DNA of 35,434 bases. It comes from Anaerolineae bacterium. GTDB lineage: Bacteria; Chloroflexota; Anaerolineae; JAADDB01. Every line of letters starts with the position of its first letter. Positions within the stretch are counted from its first letter, which is position 1. Below are positions 4,025 through 20,881 of this stretch, piece after piece. The DNA lies in assembly GCA_015490995.1 (NCBI GenBank), contig WFWT01000059.1, positions 1 through 35,434 of the forward strand. Direction: 5' to 3'. The notes beneath the pieces are model-generated. The model searched no databases and was not told the origin of the DNA. It saw only the letters and a list, made by a program, of their open reading frames with translations. Made by a program: the position numbers and the translations under genes.

Positions 4025-4136
4025 CATACCTAAGGTTGGTCACCTGTGGTTATCTGTGTGGTAAGAGGTACCCGACATCCCCAAACGCGTGCGGTCGACC
4101 CCCGTGATTCAGGCGAACGACGAACAGGAGGGGCAC

Positions 4137-5300
4137 ATGCGGCCAGACCTCAGCGCGATGGACACCCTACCTCCTTCCCCCGGCTCAACCGTGGCTTTTG
4201 AGAAGACCGCGCTGGATATCCTGATCGCTACCTTACGCCAACGCGGGTACACGGTTGTGGGGCCCACCGTACGCGATGACGCGATCGTGTACGATGAGAT
4301 CGGAGGCGTAACAGACCTGCCCATCGGCTATGTGGACGAACAGGAAGCGGGCACCTACCGCCTACGACGCTGGGAAAAGGACACCTTCTTTGCCTACACG
4401 GTGGGACCGTATGCGTGGAAGAAATTCCTATACCCACCGGAGGAGCGCCTCTGGGAAGTCCGCCGGGAGAACGGCACCCTACGCTTTACCGAAGCCCCCC
4501 TTCCCACAGAGCAGTACGCGTTTATCGGTGTGCGCAGCTGCGAACTGGCTGCCATCCGCATTCAGGACCGTATCTTCACCGGTGGGCCCTATGTCGACCC
4601 CCGATATCAGGCCCGCCGTGAACGCCTGTTTATCCTGGCGGTGAACTGCACCCGCGCGGGGAACACCTGCTTCTGTGCTTCTGTAGGATCCGGTCCCCAG
4701 GCAGAAGGCCCGTACGATATCGCGCTTACCGAGCTGGACGAGGTGTTCATCGCCCACGTGGGCAGTGTCCTGGGCGGCCAGATCCTCGCCGAAGTCCCTC
4801 ACCGTCCTGCCACCGAAGAGGAGCGCGCGGCCGCAGCCGAACGGGTCCAGGCCACAGCTCGCACCATGCGACGTGCACTGGACACCACCGACCTGCGAGA
4901 CCTGCTGTTCAACCATCAGGAACACCCCCACTGGGAGGACGTGGCTACACGCTGCCTCGCGTGCACCAACTGCACCCTGGTATGTCCCACCTGCTTCTGC
5001 TTCTCGGTGGAGGACCTGACGGACCTTCAAGGGGAGAGCGCCTGGCGAGTGCGCCGGTGGGATTCTTGCTTTTCCCAGGCCTTTACCTACACCGCGGGAC
5101 GCCCCGCCCGCCAGTCCATTGCTTCTCGTTACCGTCAGTGGCTCACCCACAAACTGGCCGGATGGGTTGACCAGTTCGGCGTCCTGGGGTGTGTGGGATG
5201 TGGCCGTTGCATCACATGGTGCCCGGCCCAGATTGACATTACGGAGGAAGTGGCACGGTTACGGGAACAACCGCCACAGACGGAAAGGAGTCCATCATGA
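4137..5300 (+). CDS. hydB: Group 3b NiFe hydrogenase beta subunit, 4Fe-4S protein (HydB)
   Basis: The beta subunit carries electrons between the flavin subunit and the hydrogenase dimer of cytoplasmic NAD(P)-linked (group 3b, sulfhydrogenase-type) enzymes; it is related to anaerobic sulfite reductase subunit A. The 387-residue product has two C-terminal ferredoxin-type clusters, CLACTNCTLVCP and CVGCGRCITWCP, each CxxCxxCxxxCP. A second cysteine-containing stretch (NTCFCASVG) lies mid-protein. ATG 4137 sits behind AGGAGGGG; an in-frame ATG at 4089 has no such site. It is first in an operon with hydG, hydD and hydA, and its last four bases overlap the next start (ATGA), a sign of coupled translation. 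Confidence 0.92.
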   Translation: MRPDLSAMDTLPPSPGSTVAFEKTALDILIATLRQRGYTVVGPTVRDDAIVYDEIGGVTDLPIGYVDEQEAGTYRLRRWEKDTFFAYTVGPYAWKKFLYPPEERLWEVRRENGTLRFTEAPLPTEQYAFIGVRSCELAAIRIQDRIFTGGPYVDPRYQARRERLFILAVNCTRAGNTCFCASVGSGPQAEGPYDIALTELDEVFIAHVGSVLGGQILAEVPHRPATEEERAAAAERVQATARTMRRALDTTDLRDLLFNHQEHPHWEDVATRCLACTNCTLVCPTCFCFSVEDLTDLQGESAWRVRRWDSCFSQAFTYTAGRPARQSIASRYRQWLTHKLAGWVDQFGVLGCVGCGRCITWCPAQIDITEEVARLREQPPQTERSPS

Positions 5301-5782
5301 GCGCCGAAACCGTTGCTGATCTCGTTACCCGGCTGGAACAACATCCCTTTACTCAAGGATTTCCCACCTCTGCGCTGGACAAACTGACCCAGGCCGCTAC
5401 CCTCCAGACCTTCCAGCCGGGGACGTTCCTCCTGCGCGAGGGACGGGATGCCGATCACTTCTACCTGCTTCTACAGGGGCAGGCCGCGATTGAGCTGTAC
5501 CTGCCTGAACGCGGGGTCATCCGCCTGCAAACGGTAGGTCCCGGGGACGTAGTCGGTTGGTCCTGGCTCTTACCTCCCTATCGGGCCGCGTTCGACGTCA
5601 CGGTTATCAACACCGTCCAGGCCATCACCTTTGACGCGGCCAGATTGCGTCGGCTACTGGACGACGATCCCACCCTGGCCGCGCACTTCCTGCGACGTCT
5701 GGTCGCGGTAATTGCCCAGCGAGTCCACGCCACACGGTTGCAGCTCATCGACATGTACGCGGTGAAAGGAGGTCGCCCATGA
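5297..5782 (+). CDS. Cyclic-nucleotide-binding-domain protein within the hydrogenase operon
   Basis: The 161-residue product is essentially one Crp/Fnr-type cNMP-binding beta-roll. Visible features are GTFLLREGRDADHFYLLLQG, then the phosphate-cassette-like region GDVVGWSWLL...RAAFDV, and a C-terminal helix. There is no helix-turn-helix domain afterwards, so it is unlikely to be a DNA-binding Crp. The gene overlaps hydB by 4 bp upstream and hydG by 4 bp downstream, so it is made in step with the hydrogenase. It may be a regulatory or assembly subunit that senses a nucleotide. The usual Glu of the GExxGE signature is replaced (GDVVGW), so cAMP binding itself is uncertain. Confidence 0.85.
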   Translation: MSAETVADLVTRLEQHPFTQGFPTSALDKLTQAATLQTFQPGTFLLREGRDADHFYLLLQGQAAIELYLPERGVIRLQTVGPGDVVGWSWLLPPYRAAFDVTVINTVQAITFDAARLRRLLDDDPTLAAHFLRRLVAVIAQRVHATRLQLIDMYAVKGGRP

Positions 5783-6654
5783 TGCCCACACCCCCCTCGC
5801 CCGCGGCCCAACCCACCGGCCCCACGGGCAACGCGTGGGTACCCATCCCATTCACCGTGGTCCGGCGACGTCGCGAGATCCCAGGTACGGTGACCCTGTG
5901 GCTTGCCCCACCGGAGGGGTATCCCTTCGCGTTTCGGCCTGGGCAGTTCAACATGCTCTACGTGTTCGGGGTCAAGGAAGTGCCCATTTCTATCAGCGGT
6001 GATCCGGGCACACCGGTGCCTGTAGCCCACACCATCCGTCAGGTAGGCATGGCAACTCAGGCCCTGGTCAACCTGAAGCCAGGCGACGTGGTAGGCGTGC
6101 GGGGTCCCTTCGGCTCCGCTTGGCCCTTGGAACACGCCCGGGGACACGACGTGGTGATCGTGGCGGGAGGTATTGGCCTGGCGCCCTTGCGCCCCGCCAT
6201 CTATTCTCTCCTGCGCCACCGCCCCCAGTACGGCAACGTGGTGCTGTTGTACGGCGCACGTTCGCCCCGAGAGCTCCTCTACGCCCGCGAGCTGGAACGG
6301 TGGCGGGGACGGTTCGACATGGAAGTGCTCGTCACCGTGGATCGCGGTGATCGAACATGGCATGGGCATGTGGGTGTGGTCACCACCCTCTTCCCACAGG
6401 CAGATGTCTTCTTCTCACCGCAAAACACGATAGCCTTCATTTGCGGTCCCGAAATCATGATGCGGTTTACCGTGCGCGAGCTGCTGGACCGGGGTGTCCC
6501 CCCGGAACGCATTTTCGTCTCCTTAGAACGAAACATGCACTGCGGGCAGGGGCTGTGCGGCCATTGCCAGTATGGTCCGTTCTTCATCTGCAAGGACGGC
6601 CCGGTGTTCCCTTATCAGAAGCTGGCCACCCTCTTTGGCATCCGGGAAATATGA
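5779..6654 (+). CDS. hydG: Group 3b NiFe hydrogenase gamma subunit, FAD/NAD(P)-binding (HydG)
   Basis: This is the diaphorase subunit that exchanges electrons with NAD(P)H; it belongs to the ferredoxin reductase/PyrK-like family. The 291-residue product has an N-terminal FAD-binding barrel (FRPGQFNML), a nucleotide-binding domain beginning at VVIVAGGIGLAPLRP, and CGPEIMM near the end of the NAD(P) fold. A C-terminal [2Fe-2S] site has Cys255, Cys260, Cys263 and Cys271. The ATG at 5779 overlaps the preceding stop by 4 bp behind an AAAGGAGG ribosome site. Preference for NADP over NAD cannot be told by eye. Confidence 0.93.
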   Translation: MMPTPPSPAAQPTGPTGNAWVPIPFTVVRRRREIPGTVTLWLAPPEGYPFAFRPGQFNMLYVFGVKEVPISISGDPGTPVPVAHTIRQVGMATQALVNLKPGDVVGVRGPFGSAWPLEHARGHDVVIVAGGIGLAPLRPAIYSLLRHRPQYGNVVLLYGARSPRELLYARELERWRGRFDMEVLVTVDRGDRTWHGHVGVVTTLFPQADVFFSPQNTIAFICGPEIMMRFTVRELLDRGVPPERIFVSLERNMHCGQGLCGHCQYGPFFICKDGPVFPYQKLATLFGIREI

Positions 6655-6682
6655 CCGGTAAACCAAAGGAAAGGAGCACATT

Positions 6683-7486
6683 ATGCCCGGAGGACAGCGC
6701 AAACCCAAACTCGCGGTGTGGAAGTTCACCTCCTGTGATGGGTGCCAGCTCTCCCTGCTGGACCTGGAGGAACACCTCCTCGCCATTGTTGGTCGGGTAG
6801 AAATTGCCTACTTTTTGGAGGCCTCTCGCGCCACGGTTCGCGGGCCGTATGATATTTCCCTGGTGGAGGGTAGCATCTCCACACCCCATGAGGCAGAGCT
6901 CATCAAGGAAGTACGCAAACAAAGCCGATTCCTAGTAGCTATCGGTGCCTGCGCCACCGCGGGGGGCATTCAGGCCCTGCGCAACTTCGCGGACGTCCGC
7001 GCGTTTGTTGACATTGTCTACGCGCACCCGGAGTACATCCGCACCCTGCGCGAGGCCCGGCCCATCGCCGATTACGTGACGGTAGACTTTGAGCTGCGGG
7101 GATGCCCCATCAGCCGGTACCAGCTGCTGGAGTTAATCAGCGCGTACCTGCACGGCCGTCAGCCCAGTATCCCCACGTACAGCGTGTGTGCGGAGTGCAA
7201 GCGGAAAGGCGTGGTGTGTGTGCTTGTGTCTCAGGGGGTGCCCTGTCTGGGTCCCGTCACCCAAGCGGGATGTAACGCGCTGTGCCCAACCTATCGACGG
7301 GGATGTTACGGCTGCTTTGGTCCGATGGAATCGCCCAATCCCCTCTCGTTGGGCCGCCGCTTTGAAACCCTAGGTGTCCCACCGGCAGACATCATTCGCC
7401 TGTACCGCACCTTCAACGCGTTCGCACCGGCATTCCGCGAAGGGAGTGAGCACTATGAGCAAACGAGCTCGCACGCGCACGATTAA
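6683..7486 (+). CDS. hydD: Group 3b NiFe hydrogenase small subunit (HydD)
   Basis: The small subunit houses the iron-sulfur relay closest to the NiFe site. The 267-residue product begins with [15 protein letters not shown], whose Cys18 and Cys21 are the first ligands of the proximal [4Fe-4S] cluster. GACATAGGI supplies a further ligand, and the C-terminal half is rich in cysteines ([30 protein letters not shown]). There is no twin-arginine signal peptide, as expected for a cytoplasmic group 3 enzyme. AAAGGAG precedes ATG 6683. The last 32 bp overlap the start of hydA in another frame, so the two subunits are translationally linked. Confidence 0.94.
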
Positions 7487-8759
7487 CGTTAACTACCTGG
7501 CCCGGGTGGAAGGCGAGGGCGCACTGTACATCAAAGCCCGTAACGGACACATTCAGGAACTGCGTCTCACCATCTTTGAACCGCCTCGCTTCTTCGAAGC
7601 CTTCCTGCGCGGTCGCCGTTACGCCGAAGCCCCGGACATCACCGCGCGTATTTGCGGCATCTGCCCGGTGGCCTATCAAATGAGCGCAGTACACGCCATG
7701 GAAGCTATCTTCGGCGTCCAAGTGCAGGGCCCCCTGCGCGAGCTGCGTCGTCTGCTCTACTGCGGTGAATGGATAGAAAGCCACGCCCTCCACGTGCTCA
7801 TGCTGCACGCGCCCGACTTCCTCGGCTACCAGAGCGTGATCGACATGGCCCAGGACCACCCTGAGATCGTGCAAAAGGGGCTAACTCTCAAGCGCACAGG
7901 CAACGACCTGGTGGAGTTCATCGGCGGCCGCGAAATTCACCCCATCAACGTGCGGGTCGGTGGCTTTTATTCCGTCCCCAAACGCAAAGACCTGCAACAG
8001 TTCATCGGCAAACTGGAACAGGCACGCGACATTGCGGTCGAGCTGGTTCGCTGGGTAGGCACCTTCACCTTTCCGGACTTCGAACAGGACTACGAGTTCG
8101 TCGCCTTGCGCCATCCAGACGAATACCCTCTCAACGAAGGCCGCATTGTTTCTAACAAAGGCATTGACATCGCAGTACACGAATATGACACAGCCTTTGA
8201 AGAGTACCAGGTGCCCCATTCCACGGCGTTACACTCCCGCGTCCGAGGCCGCGACGCGTACATGGTCGGCCCCCTGGCTCGCTTCAACCTTAACTTCGAC
8301 CGCCTTACCCCCACCGCCCAGGAGGTGGTGCGCGAGCTGGGCTTCTCCCTTCCCTACCGTAACCCGTTCATGAGCATCATCGCGCGCGCGGTGGAACTCG
8401 TCTACGCGTGCGAAGAAGCGCTGCGTATCGTGCGCACGTACGAAGAACCGGACCGTCCTTACGTGCCCTATGAAGTGCGCGCCGGCACCGGCCACGGGTG
8501 CACCGAAGCCCCACGCGGGATCCTGTACCACCGTTACACCGTCGACGCCGAAGGGATTATCCAGGAAGCGCGCATTGTGCCCCCTACAGCCCAAAACCTT
8601 CACCAGATGGAACAAGACCTGTATCACTACGCTCCCCAGGTGCTGGAACTCCCTCTGGAACAGGCCACGTGGCTGTGTGAACAGGCCATCCGAAACTACG
8701 ACCCCTGCATCTCCTGCTCCGCGCACTTCCTGCGCCTGGACATCGACAAGGACGAGTAA
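7455..8759 (+). CDS. hydA: Group 3b NiFe hydrogenase large (catalytic) subunit (HydA)
   Basis: The catalytic subunit binds the NiFe(CN)2CO centre. The 434-residue product has the N-terminal ligand motif RICGICPVA (Cys67, Cys70) and the C-terminal motif DPCISCSAH (Cys418, Cys421, His424). Ten residues follow His424 and form the probable tail removed by the endopeptidase encoded at 3348-3824. A terminal glutamate-rich tail and the absence of signals fit a soluble enzyme. I chose ATG 7455, behind AGGGAG. The frame is open 81 bp further upstream, but that part lies in hydD and looks non-coding. Motif form and gene order (beta, gamma, delta, alpha) place it in group 3b. Confidence 0.95.
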
Positions 8760-9372: not shown

Positions 9373-11520
9373 ATGATGTCGTTCAAACGTGGTGCTATCG
9401 TTGCGGTCGCGGTACTCTTTGTCCTGATCGTGCTGGTCGCCTGTGGCCAAAAGGCCACCCCGACGCCTACACCCACACCGGTACCGCAGCCGAGCCCGAC
9501 GCCTGAGGCGAAGACCGAGCAACCGTCCGCGCCTCCGGCGACCACACCGGAAGAAAAGGCAGAAACGCCCAAGGAGGAGGCAGAGGAGAAGGACGTCAAC
9601 GCCCTCGCCGTGACCGCCATGCAGCGGGTCGGCTGTGGTGGTTGTCACGTGATTCCGGGGGTACCAAACGCCCAGGGCGCGATCGGCCCAGATCTCTCCC
9701 GCATGGGGGAAATCGCGGCCCAGCGGATAAAGGACCCCAAGTACGAGGGCAAAGCGAAGACGGCCATCGATTACATCCGCGAATCCATTACCGATCCGGA
9801 TATCTTCATCGTGCCTGAATGTCCTAGCGGGCCCTGCATGAAAGGGCAGATGCCCAACATGACGGGCGCCCTGAGCGAAGAGGAGCTGGAGGCCATCGTC
9901 CAGTACCTGGCTGCACTGCCCAGCGAAGCAGTGGAAGCACCGGCAGAAGCCACCCCCGAGGCGGTGGCCATGCAGCCGCCCCCCTTGACCCCCGAGGAGT
10001 TCGAGAAGGCCAAGCAGATCTACTTCAACCGCTGCGCGGGATGCCACGGTACACTGCGCAAGGGCGCGACCGGACCGGCCCTGACACCGGATCGCACCTT
10101 GCCCAAAGGCACAGCGGCCCTGGCGTCCATCATCTACAACGGCACACCCGGCGGCATGCCCGACTGGGGCAAGCAGGGCATCCTGAGCAAGGAAGAAGTG
10201 GAACTGATGGCCAAGTTCATCCAGAACGAACCGCCGCCGCCGCCCGAACTCTCCATGCTCCAGATGAAGGAGACATGGAAACTGTACGTGCCGGTGGAAG
10301 AGCGACCCACCGAACCTCAGTACAAGGGCGATTGGGAGAACCTCTTCTGCGTGGTCGAGCGTGACGCGGGACGGGTCGCCATCATCGACGGTGACACCAA
10401 AGAGATCGTCACCCGCATCAACACCGGCTTCGCGGTCCACATCTGCCGCATGTCCGCGACCGGGCGGTACGTGTACACCATTGGCCGCGACGGCAAGGCC
10501 ACCCTCATCGACCTGTGGACGGAAGTACCTACCCTGGTGGCCGAGGTGCAGGCCTGCTATGACTCGCGGTCCATCGACTCCAGCAAGTACAATGGCGAAC
10601 TGGGCGATTACCGGGACAAGTACGCCATCGTCGGGTGTTACTGGCCACCGCACTTCGTCATACTCGACGGACAAACCTTAGAACCTATCAAAGTGGTCAG
10701 TACGAGAAGTTACACCTACGACACCGAAGAGTACCACCCCGAACCGCGCGTGGCGAGCATCGTGGCCTCCCACTATCGGCCCCGCTGGATCGTCACGGTC
10801 AAGGAAACGGGGATGGTCTGGCTGGTGGACTACAGCGACCCCAACAACCCGACCATCAAGATGATCGAGGCGGAACGGTTCCTCCACGACGGTGGGTGGG
10901 ACGCGAGCCGTCGTTACTTCCTGGTAGCGGCCAACCAGCGTAACAAGATCGTGGTTGTGGACGCGAAGGAGGAGAAACTGGTCGCTACCATCGAGACGGG
11001 CAAGCTGCCCCATCCCGGCCGTGGGGTGAACTTCGTCGACCCAGAGTACGGCCCGGTATGGTGCACCGTGCACCTGGGCGACCCGCTCCTCGCCTGCATC
11101 GGCACCGACCCCGAGAACTACCCCGAATACGCCTGGAAGGTGGTTCGCCGGGTCGAACTGCCGGGCAGCGGGAGCCTCTTCGTCAAGAGCCACCCGAAGA
11201 GTCAGTGGATCTGGGTGGACTTCACCATCAACCCGGACGAGAAGCTGCAGCGAACTATCTGTGTCATCAACAAGCAAGATCCTTCCAAGGTCGCCAAGTG
11301 CTGGGAGGTGGCAGATTACGGCCGGGCCGTGCACTTTGACTACAACAAGGCCGGCGATGAAGTGTGGGTCAGCGTCTGGGGCAAGAAGGACGAGCCGGGC
11401 CGCACCGGGGAGATCGTGGTCTACGATGACAAGACCCTGCAAGAGAAGACCCGGATCAAGGGCTTGGTGACGCCCACCGGTAAGTTCAACGTGTACAACA
11501 CTGCCCGTGACATCTACTAA
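9373..11520 (+). CDS. nirS: Cytochrome cd1 nitrite reductase NirS with an extra N-terminal cytochrome c domain and lipoprotein anchor
   Basis: NirS reduces nitrite to nitric oxide on the outer face of the cytoplasmic membrane. The 715-residue product starts with a hydrophobic signal ending in LVAC (lipobox, Cys24), then a Pro/Thr/Glu-rich linker to about residue 75. A first cytochrome c domain follows (CGGCH 88-92, possible Met160 ligand), then a second (CAGCH 221-225, Met262 in GGMPDW). The heme d1 beta-propeller begins near 320. It keeps the proximal d1 ligand His356 (AVHICRMSATGRY) and both catalytic histidines, His467 (ASHYRP) and His547 (PHPGRG). Usual NirS has a single c domain and is soluble, so the extra c domain and lipid anchor are unusual. 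AAGGAGGGG precedes ATG 9373. No heme d1 synthesis genes are in the window. Confidence 0.93.
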   Translation: MMSFKRGAIVAVAVLFVLIVLVACGQKATPTPTPTPVPQPSPTPEAKTEQPSAPPATTPEEKAETPKEEAEEKDVNALAVTAMQRVGCGGCHVIPGVPNAQGAIGPDLSRMGEIAAQRIKDPKYEGKAKTAIDYIRESITDPDIFIVPECPSGPCMKGQMPNMTGALSEEELEAIVQYLAALPSEAVEAPAEATPEAVAMQPPPLTPEEFEKAKQIYFNRCAGCHGTLRKGATGPALTPDRTLPKGTAALASIIYNGTPGGMPDWGKQGILSKEEVELMAKFIQNEPPPPPELSMLQMKETWKLYVPVEERPTEPQYKGDWENLFCVVERDAGRVAIIDGDTKEIVTRINTGFAVHICRMSATGRYVYTIGRDGKATLIDLWTEVPTLVAEVQACYDSRSIDSSKYNGELGDYRDKYAIVGCYWPPHFVILDGQTLEPIKVVSTRSYTYDTEEYHPEPRVASIVASHYRPRWIVTVKETGMVWLVDYSDPNNPTIKMIEAERFLHDGGWDASRRYFLVAANQRNKIVVVDAKEEKLVATIETGKLPHPGRGVNFVDPEYGPVWCTVHLGDPLLACIGTDPENYPEYAWKVVRRVELPGSGSLFVKSHPKSQWIWVDFTINPDEKLQRTICVINKQDPSKVAKCWEVADYGRAVHFDYNKAGDEVWVSVWGKKDEPGRTGEIVVYDDKTLQEKTRIKGLVTPTGKFNVYNTARDIY

Positions 11521-11901: not shown

Positions 11902-12423
11902 ATGATTGCACCACCGCGTGTCTGGTGGAAACCCTTAGGACGGTTGGAACGCAGCTGGTTTAAGCTGGCCTTCGTTTGGTGCATCTTTCTAACCGCAATG
12001 ATGCCGCTCTGGTTCTTCCTGGGCCGACAGAACGTTCCGACCACTACGTATCGAGTGACGGCAGAACAGTTCCAGCGCCAAGTGGACGCCTTCATCCAAC
12101 AGTATCAGGTTGGGACGGAAAACGGTTTTCCGGTGGTCGAGCCTCCACCGGGCAGTGACGTTTACATGCTGGCACGGATGTGGCAATGGACACCGGTGTT
12201 GAAGCTGAAGCGAGGGGCAACGTATCGTCTGCACTTATCCTCCACGGATGTCCAGCACGGTTTCTCCTTACAACCGCTTAACCTGAACTTCATGGTACTC
12301 CCCGGATATGACTACGTGGTGACCATTACCCCCACGACCGCCGGGGAGTTCAGCGTGGTGTGCAACGAGTACTGCGGTATCGGCCATCACCTGATGATTG
12401 GCAAGATCATCGTAACCGAGTAA
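11902..12423 (+). CDS. Heme-copper reductase subunit II with CuA site
   Basis: Subunit II accepts electrons from cytochrome c at the CuA centre and passes them to subunit I. The 173-residue product has one N-terminal membrane anchor (about residues 22-41) and an extracytoplasmic cupredoxin domain. All CuA ligands are visible: His119, then Cys154, Glu156 and Cys158 in CNEYCGIGHHLM, His162 and Met165. A single anchor and short length are typical of B-family (ba3-like) subunit II and its NO-reductase relatives. GGAAGGAGG precedes the ATG. It lies 16 bp before subunit I. A CuA site means the electron donor is probably a c-type cytochrome or the heme c domains of neighbouring proteins, not quinol. 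Confidence 0.92.
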   Translation: MIAPPRVWWKPLGRLERSWFKLAFVWCIFLTAMMPLWFFLGRQNVPTTTYRVTAEQFQRQVDAFIQQYQVGTENGFPVVEPPPGSDVYMLARMWQWTPVLKLKRGATYRLHLSSTDVQHGFSLQPLNLNFMVLPGYDYVVTITPTTAGEFSVVCNEYCGIGHHLMIGKIIVTE

Positions 12424-12439
12424 GAAAGGAGAGCGAGCC

Positions 12440-14158
12440 ATGGCAGTGGCAGCGATTCCGCGCCGAGAAACCACGGTGTTCCGCACCTGCTCGGCCACAG
12501 GGTTAAAAGTAGACGTGGCTGCGGAACGCCTTATCATCGCCAACGCCGTCGCAGCTGTGGTGGCCCTGCTGGTGGGAGGCATCCTTGCCTTGCTTATCGC
12601 CCTCACCCGATGGCAGGCCATCCACCTCTTGAATCCGGTGTGGTTTTATCGTCTGACGACCCTTCACGGCATTGACATGCTCATCGCCTGGATCGTGTTT
12701 TTCGAGGTAGCCGGCCTTTATTTCGGAAGCACCGTGGCCTTAAACGCCCGAATGGTCAAGCCGGCCATTGGTTGGCTGGCCTTCGCCCTTATGGTTGTTG
12801 GCGGCGCGCTGCTGAACATTGTGGTACTCACCGGCGGCGCGGATGTGATGTTTACCGCCTACGTGCCCCTCAAGGCCCACCCCCTCTTCTACCTGGGATA
12901 CATTCTCTTCGCGGTCGGCGCGCTGGTAGCGGTGGGCTTGTTCTTCACCAACATCATTGTGGCGAAGGCCGAAGGGCGCTATGAAGGGTCATTGCCCCTC
13001 TTCGTGTTCGGCCTGGTGACCGCGTCAATCATCGCGACGTACACCCTCCTCTCGGGAGCGATGTCCCTGGTACCGGCCTTCTTCTGGTCCTTGGGCTGGA
13101 TTGAAAACTACGACGCCGGCTTCTACCGCAACCTGTTCTGGGGCTTCGGCCACCCGGCGCAACAGATCAACCTGGCCGCCATGGTGGCTATCTGGTACGT
13201 CCTTGCGGGTATCACCACGGGTGCTGTCCCCCTCAACGAGAAGCTCTCGCGCCTTGCGTTCATTCTCTACATTCTCTTCATTAATCTGGGCGCCGCTCAC
13301 CACCTGCTGGTAGACCCCGGCCCCAGCTTTGCCTGGAAGGCAACCAACACCTCGTACGCAATGTACCTGGCCGTGCTGGGCAGCCTGATCCACGCGTTCT
13401 CCATCCCGGCCGCGGTGGAGGTAGCGCTGCGACGTCGAGGCCATAAACGAGGTCTGCTGGAATGGTTGCGCCGCGCGCCGTGGCGCGAGCCCGGTTTCTC
13501 CGCCCTCGTTATTTCCATGATTGTCTTCGGGTGGATCGGAGGCGTCACCGGGGTCACTATCGGCACCGAACAGATTAACATGATGGCCCACAACACCATG
13601 CGCGTGCCGGGGCACTTCCACGCCACCGTAGTCGGCGGCACCACGTTGGCCTTCATGGGACTCACGTATTACCTCATCCCGCTGATTTTCCGCCGAGAGC
13701 TGAAGTTCAAGAAGTTGGCCATCTGGCAACCGTACGTCTATGGCATCGGTATGGCCATTGTGTCGGTCGGCATGGTCGCAGCGGGACTGCAGGGCGTCGC
13801 CCGCCGCCACTGGGATATTACCTTCACTCAGGCCCCCTTCCAGTCCCCGGTGCCGGGCACAGTACACCTGGCCCTGGCCGTTCTGGGCATTGGGGCGATC
13901 ATCGCCATCATCGGCGGCGCGATGTATCTCATCGTGGTGCTGGCTTCGGTCTTCACCGGCAAACGCGTCGAGCCCACCTCGCCAACCCTGGTTATTGACC
14001 CGCCACCTGCTATGGGTTACCTGAGCGAAGAGGAGGAGAAGGATCCTCAACTGCAACCGCGAGGCACCTTTGTCCTGGTGCTGGCCTTCTTGATGTTCTT
14101 TGCTGCCTACTACCTGAGCAACTGGTGGCTCCTCGGCCGCGCGTGGATGGTGCGATGA
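12440..14158 (+). CDS. Heme-copper reductase subunit I lacking the oxidase tyrosine; probable nitric oxide reductase (eNOR-like)
   Basis: The 572-residue polytopic protein is a heme-copper superfamily subunit I closest in pattern to B-family ba3 oxidases (HNTxxVPGHFH). Metal ligands are present: His76 and His394 for the low-spin heme, His392 for the high-spin heme, and His238, His287 and His288 for CuB. In O2 reductases of the A and B families the helix VI motif is H-P-x-x-Y, with the Tyr cross-linked to the His. Here it is HPAQQ, so Gln242 replaces the Tyr. The alternative C-family Tyr position, six residues before the HH pair, is Ile281. Loss of this Tyr is a mark of NO reductases in the superfamily, and the gene sits after nirS, so NO reduction to N2O is the best reading. 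The exact family (eNOR, sNOR or other) needs a tree. An oxidase is not excluded. Confidence 0.85.
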   Translation: MAVAAIPRRETTVFRTCSATGLKVDVAAERLIIANAVAAVVALLVGGILALLIALTRWQAIHLLNPVWFYRLTTLHGIDMLIAWIVFFEVAGLYFGSTVALNARMVKPAIGWLAFALMVVGGALLNIVVLTGGADVMFTAYVPLKAHPLFYLGYILFAVGALVAVGLFFTNIIVAKAEGRYEGSLPLFVFGLVTASIIATYTLLSGAMSLVPAFFWSLGWIENYDAGFYRNLFWGFGHPAQQINLAAMVAIWYVLAGITTGAVPLNEKLSRLAFILYILFINLGAAHHLLVDPGPSFAWKATNTSYAMYLAVLGSLIHAFSIPAAVEVALRRRGHKRGLLEWLRRAPWREPGFSALVISMIVFGWIGGVTGVTIGTEQINMMAHNTMRVPGHFHATVVGGTTLAFMGLTYYLIPLIFRRELKFKKLAIWQPYVYGIGMAIVSVGMVAAGLQGVARRHWDITFTQAPFQSPVPGTVHLALAVLGIGAIIAIIGGAMYLIVVLASVFTGKRVEPTSPTLVIDPPPAMGYLSEEEEKDPQLQPRGTFVLVLAFLMFFAAYYLSNWWLLGRAWMVR

Positions 14159-14488: not shown

Positions 14489-15445
14489 ATGGACGTTTCG
14501 GTCGTGTCCACATCTCAGGGACGTACCGCGGAGCATCGACTTGCACTGTTGGCGGTGACAGCACTGATTTCCACCATTCTGTTGATCCTGATCGGCAGCA
14601 TCGTGCGGGTCACCGGGTATGGCCTGGGATGCCCCGACTGGCCTCTCTGTTATGGTCAACCCATTCCCCCCTTCCTGGTAGGGGCCTGGTTTGAGTTCAC
14701 CCATCGTCTGGTGGGCCTGCTGGCCAGCGTGCAAATTGTAGCGCTAGGGATCCTGGCCGCCCGCCGATACCCTCACGTTGCCTGGCTACGGGTGCCGGGC
14801 ATTTTGGCCATTGTGCTCCTGGCGATACAGATCCCCCTGGGAGGCATTCACGTCCTGTTGGAAATCCCACCCCTTACCGGACTCATTCACACCGCGTTTG
14901 CCTTGGCCATTGTAGGCCTCATCGCCCTCATGTTCGCCATCCTGCACCCGAGCACGGTGGCACTGCGGGCAGAAGGGTCTCGCCTGGCACAGAACCGCCG
15001 TTTCGTCACGTGGGTAACCGTCACCACGGTGTTGTTGTACGTGCTGTTGCTCACAGGCTCACTTGTCACCCGCACCGGCGCGTCGCTCGTTTGTCCGGCA
15101 TTTCCCTGGTGCGGTGCTACCGGCACCGAGTGGCACAACTTGATCTGGATCCAGATGCTCCACCGCTATACGGCCTTTACGGTGACCTTCCTCATCCTCG
15201 TCACGGTGATATGGATTCGCCGACAGACGGAGAACCCGTCCTGGCGACGGTTTGCTTATGTGCTGTTGATCACCTTGATCGCGCAGTTTACACTGGGTGT
15301 GTTGAACGTGTTGCTGCGGTTGCCTATCTGGACACGCGCGCTTCACCTGACCGTGGGGGCCACGCTGTGGGTGCTGGTGGTCATTCTGTGGGCAAGCGTG
15401 TGGTTGGGCACCCGCCGGGATTTACTGCAGGTCGAGCAGGCTTAA
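14489..15445 (+). CDS. ctaA: Heme A synthase CtaA/Cox15
   Basis: CtaA oxidises the C8 methyl of heme O to a formyl group, making heme A for heme-copper enzymes. The 318-residue polytopic product has the four conserved heme-ligand histidines: His72 (EFTHRL), His134 (GLIHTA), His225 (QMLHRY) and His286 (RALHLT). Both cysteine pairs of the Bacillus-type enzyme are present, Cys48/Cys54 in GCPDWPLC and Cys202/Cys208 in CPAFPWC. AAGGAGG precedes ATG 14489. Its place next to the reductase suggests that the enzyme contains heme A. The heme O synthase gene (ctaB) is not in the window. Confidence 0.93.
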   Translation: MDVSVVSTSQGRTAEHRLALLAVTALISTILLILIGSIVRVTGYGLGCPDWPLCYGQPIPPFLVGAWFEFTHRLVGLLASVQIVALGILAARRYPHVAWLRVPGILAIVLLAIQIPLGGIHVLLEIPPLTGLIHTAFALAIVGLIALMFAILHPSTVALRAEGSRLAQNRRFVTWVTVTTVLLYVLLLTGSLVTRTGASLVCPAFPWCGATGTEWHNLIWIQMLHRYTAFTVTFLILVTVIWIRRQTENPSWRRFAYVLLITLIAQFTLGVLNVLLRLPIWTRALHLTVGATLWVLVVILWASVWLGTRRDLLQVEQA

Positions 15446-15548: not shown

Positions 15549-16268
15549 ATGGAGTTCATGCCTATCTCCCTGCTCATGCTAGGACTGCTAGGCAGCTTTG
15601 GCCATTGTGTGGGCATGTGCAGCCCTGTGACCCTCTTGCTGACCCGTCCAGCACAGCGGGGCAAGAGCTCCCGGGCGGTACACGGGTGGCTGCCATTGCT
15701 TCACGCGGGCCGTTTGAGCACGTACGCGCTGTTAGGCGCGCTGGCCGCCGGGGTGGGTCAGGCCCTTACCCGTGCTGTGCCGCAGGTACGCTACGTGCAG
15801 GGCTTGCTGGCCCTGGTCGTCGCCGGTGTTCTGATATACATGGCACTCGCCGCGGCCGGACGCGTCCCCCCGGTGGAACGCGCGTTCACCGTGCTAACCC
15901 GCCGATGGGGTGATGCTGTCCGTCAGTGGACGGTACTGGCTACCCCAAGACGATACCACGCGTTCCTGCTGGGCGGGTTGTGGGGCCTTTTGCCCTGCGG
16001 TCTGGTTTACACCGCGCTTCTCATCGCCACAACGACAGGAAACCCCTTAAGCGCGGCCGTGGGCATGGCACTGTTTGGCGTGGGCACGTTGCCTGCCATG
16101 CTGGGCCTCGGGTGGCTAAGCACGCAAGGCCATCTGCCCAGCCGAGAGGTTCTCCGATACCTGGCAGCCGGTCTGATCTTCCTCTTCGGGATCCAGATGG
16201 CCCTGCGTGGCCTGGCCGCATGGGGGTGGGTGGCACACACGCGCGTGGGAGGGATTATGCTGTGGTAA
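15549..16268 (+). CDS. DsbD_2/TauE-SafE-type membrane protein, probable metal or assembly factor
   Basis: The 239-residue product has about six membrane helices and the glycine-rich repeats of the DsbD transmembrane-like family (annotated as sulfite exporter TauE/SafE or cytochrome biogenesis protein). Near the N-terminus GHCVGMC (His19, Cys20, Met23, Cys24) is a likely metal site, and LLPCGLVYT is the second family signature. Relatives often sit beside CcoI/CopA ATPases and heme-copper oxidases, where they support copper delivery; the next gene here is such an ATPase. The ribosome site (GGCGGGG) is weak. The gene overlaps the ATPase start by 7 bp. The substrate cannot be told from sequence. 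Confidence 0.82.
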   Translation: MEFMPISLLMLGLLGSFGHCVGMCSPVTLLLTRPAQRGKSSRAVHGWLPLLHAGRLSTYALLGALAAGVGQALTRAVPQVRYVQGLLALVVAGVLIYMALAAAGRVPPVERAFTVLTRRWGDAVRQWTVLATPRRYHAFLLGGLWGLLPCGLVYTALLIATTTGNPLSAAVGMALFGVGTLPAMLGLGWLSTQGHLPSREVLRYLAAGLIFLFGIQMALRGLAAWGWVAHTRVGGIMLW

Positions 16269-18586
16269 CGAAAGTAACCTGTTCCCTTTGTGGCCTCTCC
16301 ACCACCGCACCGCTTTACGACCGAGAAGGACGCCCCTATTGTTGTCCGGCCTGTCAGGAAGTGGCCCAGCTCCTTGAAAGTTCTGCTGAACCTGCCGGCG
16401 AAGTCCGGCCGCCAAGTCCTCCCGACACCGCCACGGAAGAAGCCACCCTGGCCCTGGGTGACTTATGGTGTACATCCTGCAGCTGGCTGATCGAAGAAAC
16501 CCTCAAACGAACCCCGGGCGTTGCCCAAGCGCAGGTCAACTTTGTACGCCGGGAAGCACGCGTGGTCTACGATCCTCAACGGGTAGACCTGAATCGGTTG
16601 GCCAAACGGGTGCGCCGGCTGGGGTATCGGGCCTGGCTGCCCGGCGAAACCCCGCAGGATGAGGAGGAAGCGCTGGTCAACCGCCTGCTCATCAGCACGG
16701 TATTCGTGATGCACATCATGGTTACCAGCTTTATCCTCTACGGTCGTGATCTCCTTGGCCTTTCATCGCCGGACACTCAATGGCTGGTCCAGTTCTTCCA
16801 CATCACGCTCTTCGTCGCTGCGCTCCCTGTCATGTTCCTTCTGGGATTGCCCATCCTGCGGACCGGGCTGGTTAGCCTATTACGCCGCCAACCTAACATG
16901 CACACCTTAATCGCCATCGGTGCGTTTTCAGCGTTCATCCTTTCCACCCGCAACCTTATCCTGGGCTACGAGCACGTGTATTTTGACACCGCGGCCATGC
17001 TCCTCTTCCTGGTTACTATTGGGCACTGGCTGGAAGTCCGAGCGCGTAACGAGGGGAGCAAGGCGGTCGAACGGCTGTGGCGCCAGGTTCCCCGGGAAGC
17101 GCTGTGGATCTCCCCGGAGGGGGAGAAGCGGGTACCGGTGGACGTGTTGCCCCCCGGTGCTCGCGTGCGGGTGCAACCGGGAGAACCTTTTCCGGTGGAT
17201 GGCGTGGTGGCCACCGGTGCCGGGGACGTGGACGAAAGCCTCCTCACCGGGGAGCCGGTGCCGGTTTACCGCCAGCCCGGCGACACGGTCCACGCGGGCA
17301 CCATCAGTGTGGATGGCACTTTTGAAGTCATCACCACCGCGGTCGGAGGGGATACGGTAGCCGGCCAAATAGGGCGACTGTTGCATCAGGCCTTGTGGCA
17401 ACGGGCACCGGTGGAACGCTTGGCCGACCGTCTGGCCGCGCTGATGGTCCCCTTTGCAGTCCTCCTGGCTATTGGGACATTTGTGTTCTGGTCGCGCACC
17501 GCGGGCTATGAGCCCGCGCTCATGTACGCGCTCTCGGTGCTCCTCATCGCGTGTCCGTGCGCCCTCGGCTTGGCCACGCCGCTCACCTTATGGGTGGGCT
17601 TACAACGAGCCACCGAACAGGGGATGCTGGTCCGTAACACCAGCGTGCTGGAACGCCTGGCTCACGTGCGCCATGTATTTTTCGACAAGACGGGCACACT
17701 CACCCGCCATCCGCTCCGGTTAAGCGCGGTGCACGTTCGTCACGAAGACCCGAACGCGTTTCTTGCCCGGGTAGCGGCCGCGGAAGCACCGGCCCGTCAC
17801 CCCCTGGCAGAAGCCATCGTCGCCGCCGCACGGGCGCGCGGCATCGAGCCGCCACCGGTACATGACTTTGAAGCCCTGCCCGGCCAGGGCGTTATCGCCC
17901 GTCTGAACGGCCAGACCTTATACGTGGGCAACGAACGCCTCCTCGCCCACGCCCAACTCACCCTTCCATCGGACCTGCAGGAGGTCGGAGAACAACTCCG
18001 CCAGGCGGGAATGTCCGTCGTGTACGCAGGGTGGGACGGGCAGGTACAGGGAGTTATCGGGCTGGACGAAGACCCCCGCCCGGAAATCCAAGAGGTCATT
18101 AAAGAACTCCACGCCCTGGGCTGTGACGTGACCATCCTCACCGGAGACGCGCCTTCGGCCGGTGAGCGGTGGGCCCACATGCTGAACGTACCGGTGTATG
18201 CCGGATTAACCCCAGAAGAGAAAATGCACTACATCCAACAAGCTAGAGGACCGGTCGCGGTGGTGGGGGATGGCATCAACGACGGGCCTGCGCTGGCCGC
18301 AGCCGATATCGGCATTGCTGTCGGCCAGAGCACGGATATCGCTCGCGCGGCAGCGGACGTCATCCTGATCAAGGACGATCTGCGAGGCATTCCCTGGCTG
18401 CTTCGTCTGGCCCGCGCTGCCATGCGTAAAGTCCGCCAGAACCTGGCCTGGGCGTTCGTGTACAACCTTATCGGGCTCGGCCTGGCCGTTGCCGGCCAAC
18501 TGCAGCCCATCCTGGCCGCCTTTGCCATGGTTGCCAGCAGCCTCCTGGTCACCACCAACGCGCTCCGTCTCCGACGCTTCACCTGA
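16262..18586 (+). CDS. Copper-translocating P1B-type ATPase (CcoI/FixI-like)
   Basis: This ATPase pumps Cu(I) out of the cytoplasm, either for export or to load copper enzymes. The 774-residue product opens with a cysteine-rich part (Cys7/Cys10, then Cys27, Cys28 and Cys31 in YCCPAC) typical of the FixI/CcoI branch. A heavy-metal domain follows with CTSC (70-73). The membrane metal site CPC is at 431-433, the phosphorylation site DKTGT starts at Asp475, and TGD and GDGIND occur later. I chose GTG 16262, which follows GGGAGGG and overlaps the previous stop. The open frame extends 336 bp upstream, but that sequence lies inside the preceding gene. The CcoI-like N-terminus and the neighbourhood point to copper supply for the reductase. 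Confidence 0.92.
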   Translation: MVTKVTCSLCGLSTTAPLYDREGRPYCCPACQEVAQLLESSAEPAGEVRPPSPPDTATEEATLALGDLWCTSCSWLIEETLKRTPGVAQAQVNFVRREARVVYDPQRVDLNRLAKRVRRLGYRAWLPGETPQDEEEALVNRLLISTVFVMHIMVTSFILYGRDLLGLSSPDTQWLVQFFHITLFVAALPVMFLLGLPILRTGLVSLLRRQPNMHTLIAIGAFSAFILSTRNLILGYEHVYFDTAAMLLFLVTIGHWLEVRARNEGSKAVERLWRQVPREALWISPEGEKRVPVDVLPPGARVRVQPGEPFPVDGVVATGAGDVDESLLTGEPVPVYRQPGDTVHAGTISVDGTFEVITTAVGGDTVAGQIGRLLHQALWQRAPVERLADRLAALMVPFAVLLAIGTFVFWSRTAGYEPALMYALSVLLIACPCALGLATPLTLWVGLQRATEQGMLVRNTSVLERLAHVRHVFFDKTGTLTRHPLRLSAVHVRHEDPNAFLARVAAAEAPARHPLAEAIVAAARARGIEPPPVHDFEALPGQGVIARLNGQTLYVGNERLLAHAQLTLPSDLQEVGEQLRQAGMSVVYAGWDGQVQGVIGLDEDPRPEIQEVIKELHALGCDVTILTGDAPSAGERWAHMLNVPVYAGLTPEEKMHYIQQARGPVAVVGDGINDGPALAAADIGIAVGQSTDIARAAADVILIKDDLRGIPWLLRLARAAMRKVRQNLAWAFVYNLIGLGLAVAGQLQPILAAFAMVASSLLVTTNALRLRRFT

Positions 18587-18787: not shown

Positions 18788-20881
18788 ATGCGCAGAACCA
18801 CCTATTTCCAACGCCGCGGGTGGCGGCAAGCCGAACGCTTCTGGAGTTACGTTGAAGCAGGCATCAACCGGCTTACTTCCACCCGCTTCAACCCGCTATA
18901 CCACCTGGGTACCTTGGCCCTCTTCTTGCTGGGCGTCCTCCTGGTGACGGGCATTTACCTCACCATTTTTTACCGTCCAGGAGCAGATCGCGCTTATGAG
19001 ACGGTGGCGGGCATCAGCGCCAGCCCCCTCGGGCTCCTGATGCGCAGTGTACACCGCTATGCGGCCAACGCCCTGGTGGTCGTTGTGGTGTTACATGCTC
19101 TGAAGATGTTGCTCAGCGACCGGTTCTGGGAAAGTCGTTGGGTCGCTTGGGTCACCGGATGGGCCCTCCTGGGGCTCATTTGGTTTATCGGCGTGATGGG
19201 CTACTGGCTGGTCTGGGACCGCCGAGCCCAGTGGCTGACGGAGTACGGCGCCAAACTGGTGGGAGGTTCGGTAGCCCTTACCTTCCTGGGGCCTGACCTG
19301 GCAAGTCGCAGTTTTGCCTTTTTTGTCATTGTGCTCTTCTTGCACGTCTTCCTTGGGATACTCATCTTTCTCGGTTTTCTGTTACACATTCTCCGGCTCA
19401 CCCGACCACGTTGGTTGGCCCCCCGCTGGCTGATGGTGGAAGCCAGCCTGGCGCTGCTCCTGCTGGCCCTGCTCCAACCCGCCACATCCCTGGAGAAAGC
19501 GGATTTCAGCCGGGTCGTAGATAACATCCCTGTGGATTGGCTTTACCTGGGCTTTCTGCCCCTCAGCAGCCGCTGGGGAAACACCCTCTTCTGGGGTGTG
19601 GCTCTTGCCCTCTTCCTCATTGCCGTCGCCCTCCCCTGGCTCTTGCCCGGCCGTAGCGCAGGACCGGTCCAGATCACCGAGCACTTGTGTACCGGCTGTG
19701 CCCTGTGTGCGCTGAAGTGCCCGTATGAGGCGATCGAGATCGTCCCCCGCAGCGACGAATCCGGGTTCAAATCCTTGGCCGTTATCCGTCCGAACCTGTG
19801 CGTGGGATGTGGGCTCTGTATCGGCACCTGTGCAGCCATTGGCATTGACCTGCAAACCATGCCCACATCGGCCTTCCTGGACCGGTGGCACGATGCACTG
19901 GCCCAGGTCAATGGGGAAGATCAACGGCCTCTGGTCATTATCACGTGTCAACGCCACACAGCCCTGGGCACCTTTCCCACCTCCACTATCCCCCAAGAAA
20001 CGCCTCACGTAGGTGTGGAACGCTTCACGGTTGACGGGATTTCCCTGCCCGTGGTGACGGTGACGTTCCCCTGTGTGGGCATGTTGAACCCCGAATGGTT
20101 GCGTCCCCTGTTCCGCGAACCGGCCTCTATCGAAGGGGCCCTGGTAGTTTCCTGTCCCACGGATGATTGTGCTTTCCGAGAAGGACCGTACTGGCTGGTA
20201 CAGAATCTTAAATATCGACGCAAGCTGCTGGAAGCACCGCTGTATTGGATAGAAGGTGCACCTGGGGACCGGGGCTTGGTTGTGAAGTGGCTGCGCGATT
20301 TCGTGCGAGGGGAGATGGCACCTACTACTCGCGCCCAAGCCTGGATACAAGCACGTCTCCAGGAAGTGCCTACGTGGTGGCCTCGTCAACTACGCCCCTT
20401 CCTGGCCGGCCTGGCCGTATTAGTCCTGGTGACCGGTCTCGGTTGGATAGCCGAACGCCCAGCAACCACGGCCAGCCCGCCCGCGCTCGTCCGAGTGTTG
20501 ATGGTGCACCCCGGAAAGCTTAAAACAGTACAGGGCACCCTCTCCGGGGAAATGGCCGCTAAACTGCCCCCCGGCCTTACGGAAGCCCAGGTCCTGGGCG
20601 GGGAACGGTACCCGGTGCAGCTGCGAGTTGAAATCGACGGGCAGGTGATCTGGGAAGGTACTTATGCCCCCAGTGGTCTACGCCGTGAGGGTCTAGCGTA
20701 CGCGCTGGAAAATTTGCCCGTCACACCCGGCAACCATCGGGTGCGCATTCAGATGATGGACGACGGCGAAACCTGGCGTACAGTGTTCAACGGGGAGGTA
20801 ACCATCGCTGCAGGCCGGGTGGTCACTTTATTGTACGATGAAGAACAGGAAGCCTTTGTGGTGTTTTCCCCACAACCCTAA
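18788..20881 (+). CDS. Cytochrome b / 2x[4Fe-4S] / FlpD-MvhD-like fusion with extracytoplasmic tail
   Basis: The 697-residue product is a chimera. Residues 40-205 form a four-helix b6/bc1-type cytochrome b with two bis-His hemes (His89, His103, His186, His200; both pairs spaced by 13 residues). Further helices run to about 288. A ferredoxin part follows with Cys301, 304, 307, 311 and Cys338, 341, 344, 348. Residues 381-483 resemble MvhD/FlpD, the electron-transfer subunit of methanogen hydrogenase/heterodisulfide reductase: FPCVGMLNPEW (Cys429) and SCPTDDCAFREG (Cys456, Cys461). A transmembrane helix (536-553) and a ~140-residue beta-rich tail without heme motifs complete it. ATG 18788 follows AGGAG. 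It probably links a membrane quinone pool to a cytoplasmic partner, but direction and partner are unknown. The stop overlaps the convergent kinase stop by 2 bp. Confidence 0.88.
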   Translation: MRRTTYFQRRGWRQAERFWSYVEAGINRLTSTRFNPLYHLGTLALFLLGVLLVTGIYLTIFYRPGADRAYETVAGISASPLGLLMRSVHRYAANALVVVVVLHALKMLLSDRFWESRWVAWVTGWALLGLIWFIGVMGYWLVWDRRAQWLTEYGAKLVGGSVALTFLGPDLASRSFAFFVIVLFLHVFLGILIFLGFLLHILRLTRPRWLAPRWLMVEASLALLLLALLQPATSLEKADFSRVVDNIPVDWLYLGFLPLSSRWGNTLFWGVALALFLIAVALPWLLPGRSAGPVQITEHLCTGCALCALKCPYEAIEIVPRSDESGFKSLAVIRPNLCVGCGLCIGTCAAIGIDLQTMPTSAFLDRWHDALAQVNGEDQRPLVIITCQRHTALGTFPTSTIPQETPHVGVERFTVDGISLPVVTVTFPCVGMLNPEWLRPLFREPASIEGALVVSCPTDDCAFREGPYWLVQNLKYRRKLLEAPLYWIEGAPGDRGLVVKWLRDFVRGEMAPTTRAQAWIQARLQEVPTWWPRQLRPFLAGLAVLVLVTGLGWIAERPATTASPPALVRVLMVHPGKLKTVQGTLSGEMAAKLPPGLTEAQVLGGERYPVQLRVEIDGQVIWEGTYAPSGLRREGLAYALENLPVTPGNHRVRIQMMDDGETWRTVFNGEVTIAAGRVVTLLYDEEQEAFVVFSPQP

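Follow-up and report, generated by a model that had tools for sequence, protein, structure and literature searches.

The heme-copper nitric oxide (NO) reductase eNOR makes nitrous oxide. In the literature searched, the electron supply of this enzyme is not settled. One organism in culture that carries eNOR is Ardenticatena maritima 110S (PMC4653789). eNOR and a nitrite reductase of the C1-C2-NirS type have been described in Chloroflexi, where eNOR is recognized by a glutamine in the active site and consists of two subunits, with no third component described (PMC8756737). Table A3 of the same paper contains a Chloroflexi ORF, RME88945.1, that combines cytochrome b6, a DMSOR-beta-like Fe-S part, FlpD and a C1 cytochrome c; it is listed only as a carrier of the C1 domain and is given no function or link to a reductase (PMC8756737). 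From the heterodisulfide reductase (Hdr) systems, HdrA2 is known as a fusion of HdrA and MvhD that carries a [2Fe-2S] centre in its MvhD domain and interacts with ferredoxin (PMC5296606), and MvhD serves as a docking point for interchangeable input modules, such as hydrogenase, formate dehydrogenase and MetFV (PMC6085437). A literature search for a cytochrome b with FlpD or MvhD returned no description of such an architecture or complex, and a targeted eNOR paper or its supplement might mention the gene.

The window, i.e. the whole stretch of 35,434 nucleotides analysed here, carries eNOR genes and, downstream of them, a gene in which a cytochrome b core, two [4Fe-4S] motifs and an FlpD domain are joined in one chain (Table 1). 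With a confidence a little better than even, we propose that this protein (cytochrome b-Fer4-FlpD) is an accessory electron-transfer subunit of eNOR-type NO reductase, through which a cytoplasmic donor and the quinone pool would be connected with NO reduction. Its carriers occur across Anaerolineae, Nitrospirota and one more phylum. A conserved third component would be a concrete and testable answer to the question of how eNOR receives electrons.

Table 1. Positions of the cytochrome b-Fer4-FlpD gene, its parts and its neighbours in the window
Feature	Position	Strand	Remarks
Two-cytochrome-c plus cd1 nitrite reductase (C1-C2-NirS type)	9373..11520	+	same cluster; compare PMC8756737
eNOR subunit II, cupredoxin	11902..12423	+	CuA-type CNEYCGIGHHLM motif
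eNOR subunit I, heme-copper reductase	12440..14158	+	GHPAQQ: Gln in place of oxidase Tyr
CtaA-like heme A synthase	14489..15445	+	named from its sequence
TauE/SafE-like membrane protein	15549..16268	+	named from its sequence; same position in most Anaerolineae relatives
Copper P-type ATPase, CcoI/CopA type	16244..18586	+	named from its sequence; directly upstream in most Anaerolineae loci
Cytochrome b-Fer4-FlpD-TM-beta gene	18788..20881	+	697 aa plus stop
Cytochrome b core	18869..19654	+	residues 28-289; six membrane helices; H89/H186, H103/H200; cd1 segment MGYWLVWD; PEWY-like VDWLYL with D250
Two [4Fe-4S] motifs	19670..19852	+	residues 295-355
FlpD/MvhD domain	19865..20311	+	residues about 360-508; Cys 387, 429, 456, 461
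Seventh membrane helix	20381..20449	+	residues 532-554; AlphaFold2
Extracytoplasmic beta domain	20453..20878	+	residues 556-697; no cofactor motif recognised; separate gene in some relatives

The start of the gene is backed by an AGGAG five bases upstream and by homologues with the same start. Pfam places Cytochrome_B at residues 28-153 (2.4e-14), a Fer4 dicluster at 301-349 (2.4e-9) and FlpD at 422-482 (5e-6), and the FlpD score in homologues reaches 5.9e-18. The AlphaFold2 model (pLDDT 87.9, pTM 0.88) has six membrane helices, then the Fe-S part, the FlpD part, a further helix (532-554) and an end rich in beta structure (566-693). By Pfam, AlphaFold2 and the homologue starts, the first-pass annotation had the frame, coordinates and domain order right, and the late membrane helix and beta-rich end that it described are seen in the model. 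The N-terminus of a cytochrome b is usually cytoplasmic, and an even number of helices precedes the Fe-S part; the Fe-S and FlpD domains would therefore lie in the cytoplasm and the beta domain outside. A fold search with the beta domain gave nothing below E 1e-3. The protein represents a conserved family and not a chance match.

All four heme ligands of the core are practically invariant in the family, in agreement with the two bis-His hemes noticed earlier in a b6/bc1-like core. Among solved structures, the sequence matches are cytochrome b6 and bc1. Foldseek aligned about 290-320 columns to the bc1 cytochrome b, which indicates that the match extends past the b6 part, and a profile alignment to ordinary Chloroflexota cytochromes b (E 1.6e-30) runs through helices E and F. 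In this alignment V249-D250-W251 is placed on P-E-W of the PEWY motif, and D250 is invariant among 33 family members; the cd1 and PEWY-type segments of the Qo site are both present in a variant form. The position of b6 Cys35 is taken by His39 (Trp or Tyr in Nitrospirota), so that a heme cn of the b6f type is not expected. The protein is like the cytochrome b of the bc1 and b6f complexes (PF00033) in its fold, four heme ligands, helices A-F, cd1 segment and PEWY-type motif, but it differs in having xDW(Y/F/L) for PEWY, in having no adjacent Rieske gene and in the added Fe-S/FlpD cassette and outer beta domain. An ordinary bc1 cytochrome b was rejected as its identity, the other Chloroflexota b genes being separate standard proteins. 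According to family searches, on which all statements about the window's whole genome (99% complete) rest, it is the sole bc-type cytochrome b found there; a bc1-type Rieske protein was not found in the same genome, the single match being a small soluble ferredoxin.

The conserved Qo segments with their invariant acid D250 bring in another explanation, namely quinone-based bifurcation. Quinol would be oxidised at the Qo-type site, one electron passing to CuA or cytochrome c and on to NO or O2, the other via bL and bH through Fe-S/FlpD to NADH or reduced ferredoxin. A low-potential chain on the n-side and a CuA partner on the p-side are both present, the NuoF-like protein considered below could serve as NAD+ reductase, and ferredoxin is an interaction partner of HdrA2 (PMC5296606). 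However, this Qo has no Rieske protein or other known single-electron acceptor to dock there, the short form itself lacks a redox centre on the p-side, and the FlpD centre is lost in one clade. We consider bifurcation unlikely. It seems rather improbable that the protein forms a complex III without Rieske protein, dividing the electrons of quinol between NO (or oxygen) reductase and an outlet of the Hdr type in the cytoplasm; if this were true, NO respiration would drive the reduction of NAD+ or ferredoxin by quinol.

The eight cysteines of the two CxxCxxCxxxC clusters (301/304/307/311 and 338/341/344/348) are practically invariant in the family. In the FlpD domain all four cluster cysteines are present; three of them had been recognised before, and C387 had been missed. 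The FlpD profile matches MvhD chains in the PDB (9sw2_D, E 1.8e-12; 5odc_D, 4.7e-11), and the cysteines of the cluster are aligned. In NCBIfam, positions 569-771 of the 777-residue HdrA2 model are matched in a single stretch by residues 286-504 of a Nitrospirota copy (9.1e-26), and a second copy reached 1.1e-32; the match of Fer4-FlpD is thus continuous over the final 200 residues of HdrA2. Like HdrA2 (HdrA-MvhD fusion, NF040770), the protein has Fer4 motifs followed by FlpD with cluster cysteines. In contrast to HdrA2, the FAD-binding HdrA part is absent, and only the C-terminal cassette matches, carried here on a cytochrome b. The joining of the complex III quinone core to an input cassette from heterodisulfide reductase is relevant to the question of how the quinone pool can be connected with low-potential pools in the cytoplasm.

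The MvhD-like cysteines are conserved in most members and lost together in one Anaerolineae clade (12 rows in the tree), which has kept the eight [4Fe-4S] cysteines and is still linked to eNOR. The FlpD residues R464, E465 and W469 are still at least 90% conserved, which shows that the domain remains under constraint. Judging from the sequences, the [2Fe-2S] site is a real family trait that is dispensable in one clade, because all four cysteines were lost there while the eNOR linkage was kept, and it is not essential for the association with eNOR.

The first-pass annotation had read the fusion as a route between quinones and a cytoplasmic low-potential partner, possibly the hydrogenase encoded nearby or an Hdr-like complex. 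The general idea of such a route fits a Qo-type cytochrome b with an HdrA2-type Fer4-FlpD, but the named partners fail. Hydrogenase genes do lie about 10 kb upstream in the window, and FlpD domains dock to hydrogenases in Mvh. However, a gene-neighbour survey found no hydrogenase of the window's kind next to any homologue examined, and a full HdrA was not found in the carrier genomes G088, G400, G401 and G409. In the window's genome FlpD occurs once, in this protein, and HdrA is represented only by a 382-aa HdrA-like ORF elsewhere. The hydrogenase was therefore rejected as partner, as was Hdr as a general rule, and a partnership with the HydABDG hydrogenase or an Hdr complex is hardly credible. 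The hydrogenase cluster itself (4089-8759) is group 3b-like, includes a cNMP-binding regulator and is not conserved beside the homologues.

The conserved gene partner proved to be eNOR, in three phyla; NirS and NOR enzymes had been named earlier as an alternative for co-purification. The usual order in Anaerolineae is eNOR II, eNOR I, TauE/SafE-like, CcoI-type ATPase and cytochrome b-Fer4-FlpD, often with a gap of -29 to +11 bp to the upstream same-strand gene, which is consistent with an operon. The flanking stretch contains eNOR genes in 21 Anaerolineae loci and lacks them in three, and three further loci end at contig ends. The linkage repeats in 10 Nitrospirota loci and in 6 genomes of the phylum to which a Thermodesulfobacteriota genome belongs (the third phylum), all counts being inflated by related genomes and MAG linkage and the assignment to these two phyla resting on the titles of the loci used as search centres. 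The third phylum usually shows eNOR II, eNOR I, SCO, cytochrome b-Fer4-FlpD and a TM-beta gene, and the fullest Nitrospirota order is eNOR II, eNOR I, often CtaB and SCO, copy 1, a NuoF-like gene and copy 2. In the neighbouring eNOR I sequences read in Anaerolineae and Nitrospirota, GHPAQQ or GH(S/A)SQQ replaces the tyrosine motif of oxidases, in agreement with the glutamine by which eNOR is recognized (PMC8756737), and a CuA-type motif is present in all eNOR II sequences read. Distances of the cytochrome b and of eNOR I are correlated (Spearman 0.78 overall, 0.89 in Chloroflexota), which shared species history could explain.

In one draw of 400 Chloroflexota genomes, eNOR was found in 12/12 carriers, 10 of which belong to one family, against 29/400 genomes overall (hypergeometric 1.8e-15, ignoring kinship). 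A stronger argument than this p-value is that the linkage recurs in three phyla with differing genes in between. Seventeen eNOR genomes of the sample are without the cytochrome b-Fer4-FlpD gene, and no homologue was found in the eNOR neighbourhoods fetched from non-carrier genomes; since many Chloroflexota eNORs do without it, the gene is not required for NO reduction in general. Conversely, several homologues have no eNOR in the flank examined (L036, L038, L055, L114, L115, L118, L163, L165 and L166). Taken together, gene order makes the association with eNOR well supported. A NuoF-like gene adjoins the cytochrome gene in seven Nitrospirota genomes, and only in Nitrospirota (TIGR01959, 6e-137, below the cut-off of the model); its product is distinct from the further NuoF homologues of the same genomes (about 43% identity).

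In Anaerolineae the gene directly follows a CcoI-type copper ATPase, and a role in maturation comes into question: the protein might be a functional stand-in for CcoG, reducing Cu(II) during copper loading into eNOR. The order of helices, two [4Fe-4S] clusters, late helix and outer beta domain resembles that of CcoG/FixG/RdxA (PMC7558416), and no FixG_C domain was found in the window's genome. On the other hand, the Nitrospirota loci and those of the third phylum have eNOR, SCO or NuoF next to the gene and not CcoI. The beta domain matches FixG_C neither in sequence nor in fold, and one would not expect a copper reductase to contain a full Qo-type cytochrome b. CcoG proteins differ further in that the protein here has a cytochrome b core and an FlpD domain. 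Such a maturation function is very improbable. True homology to CcoG was rejected by the family and fold searches, which detected no FixG_C Ig-like domain.

The preferred reading, an accessory subunit of eNOR, builds on anatomy, conservation, the Qo core, cassette homology and genetic linkage to eNOR and, in one phylum, to NuoF, all read from sequence. The protein would be a complex-III-type cytochrome b with no Rieske partner, bearing an HdrA2 Fer4-FlpD cassette on the cytoplasmic side. Provided that the predicted cofactors are loaded and that a physical complex is formed, a cytoplasmic donor would reduce either the [2Fe-2S] centre of FlpD or, directly, the [4Fe-4S] clusters; the donor may be NADH via the NuoF-like protein in Nitrospirota and ferredoxin or another module elsewhere. 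Electrons would then reach hemes bH and bL, with quinone exchange at the retained Qo-type site, and would leave on the outer side for CuA of eNOR subunit II, directly or via a c-type cytochrome. Cytoplasmic entry is favoured by the homology of the cassette to HdrA2 and by the NuoF-like neighbour, exchange with quinone by the retained Qo site, and delivery on the outer side by the CuA of eNOR II and by the cytochrome c that the long form carries. Several points stand against it: the sequence does not fix the direction of flow, the clade lacking the four FlpD cysteines keeps its eNOR linkage, NuoF is adjacent in Nitrospirota only, homologues occur away from eNOR and many Chloroflexota eNORs occur without the gene, and the short form has no redox site between cytochrome b and CuA.

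Alternatively, the protein may be a reductase from a cytoplasmic donor to quinone that merely shares an operon with eNOR, the latter receiving its electrons from alternative complex III and a soluble cytochrome c. NrfD-type proteins in the window's genome are compatible with alternative complex III, eNOR II has CuA, and some homologues lie away from eNOR. But this leaves unexplained why the gene is linked to heme-copper reductases in three phyla, why there is an outer beta domain and why the fused-cytochrome-c paralogue lies beside an oxygen reductase. We regard such an arrangement as fairly improbable.

In the tree, the Nitrospirota members, the members with fused cytochrome c and those without FlpD cysteines form clades that each make up one side of a strongly supported branch. 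The long-form paralogue with fused cytochrome c (PF00034), which RME88945.1 probably represents, directly follows a heme-copper reductase with GHPLVYFW; since this motif keeps the tyrosine, the enzyme looks like an oxygen reductase. Members from the third phylum and from two Nitrospirota genomes have the helix-beta part encoded by a gene of its own, which indicates a separable module.

Some further loci deserve mention. A Candidatus Bipolaricaulota contig (L044) has an Anaerolineae-type cluster, owing to horizontal transfer or misbinning. A second cytochrome copy at L048:8031-9101 is without its N-terminal half, by deletion or assembly error; an intact copy is found in L049. C1-C2-NirS shares the window's cluster with eNOR (9373-11520 and 11902-14158), and L032 does likewise; no other denitrification genes were reported near such nirS in the genomes examined previously (PMC8756737). 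Heme-copper-like proteins with FWGGGH at L049:18727-20124, L049:4018-5442 and L048:10692-12083 are without the paired His of CuB, and the one tested had no NCBIfam match. A relative recurs in L137-L139 near eNOR and, in other Nitrospirota, near the cytochrome cluster.
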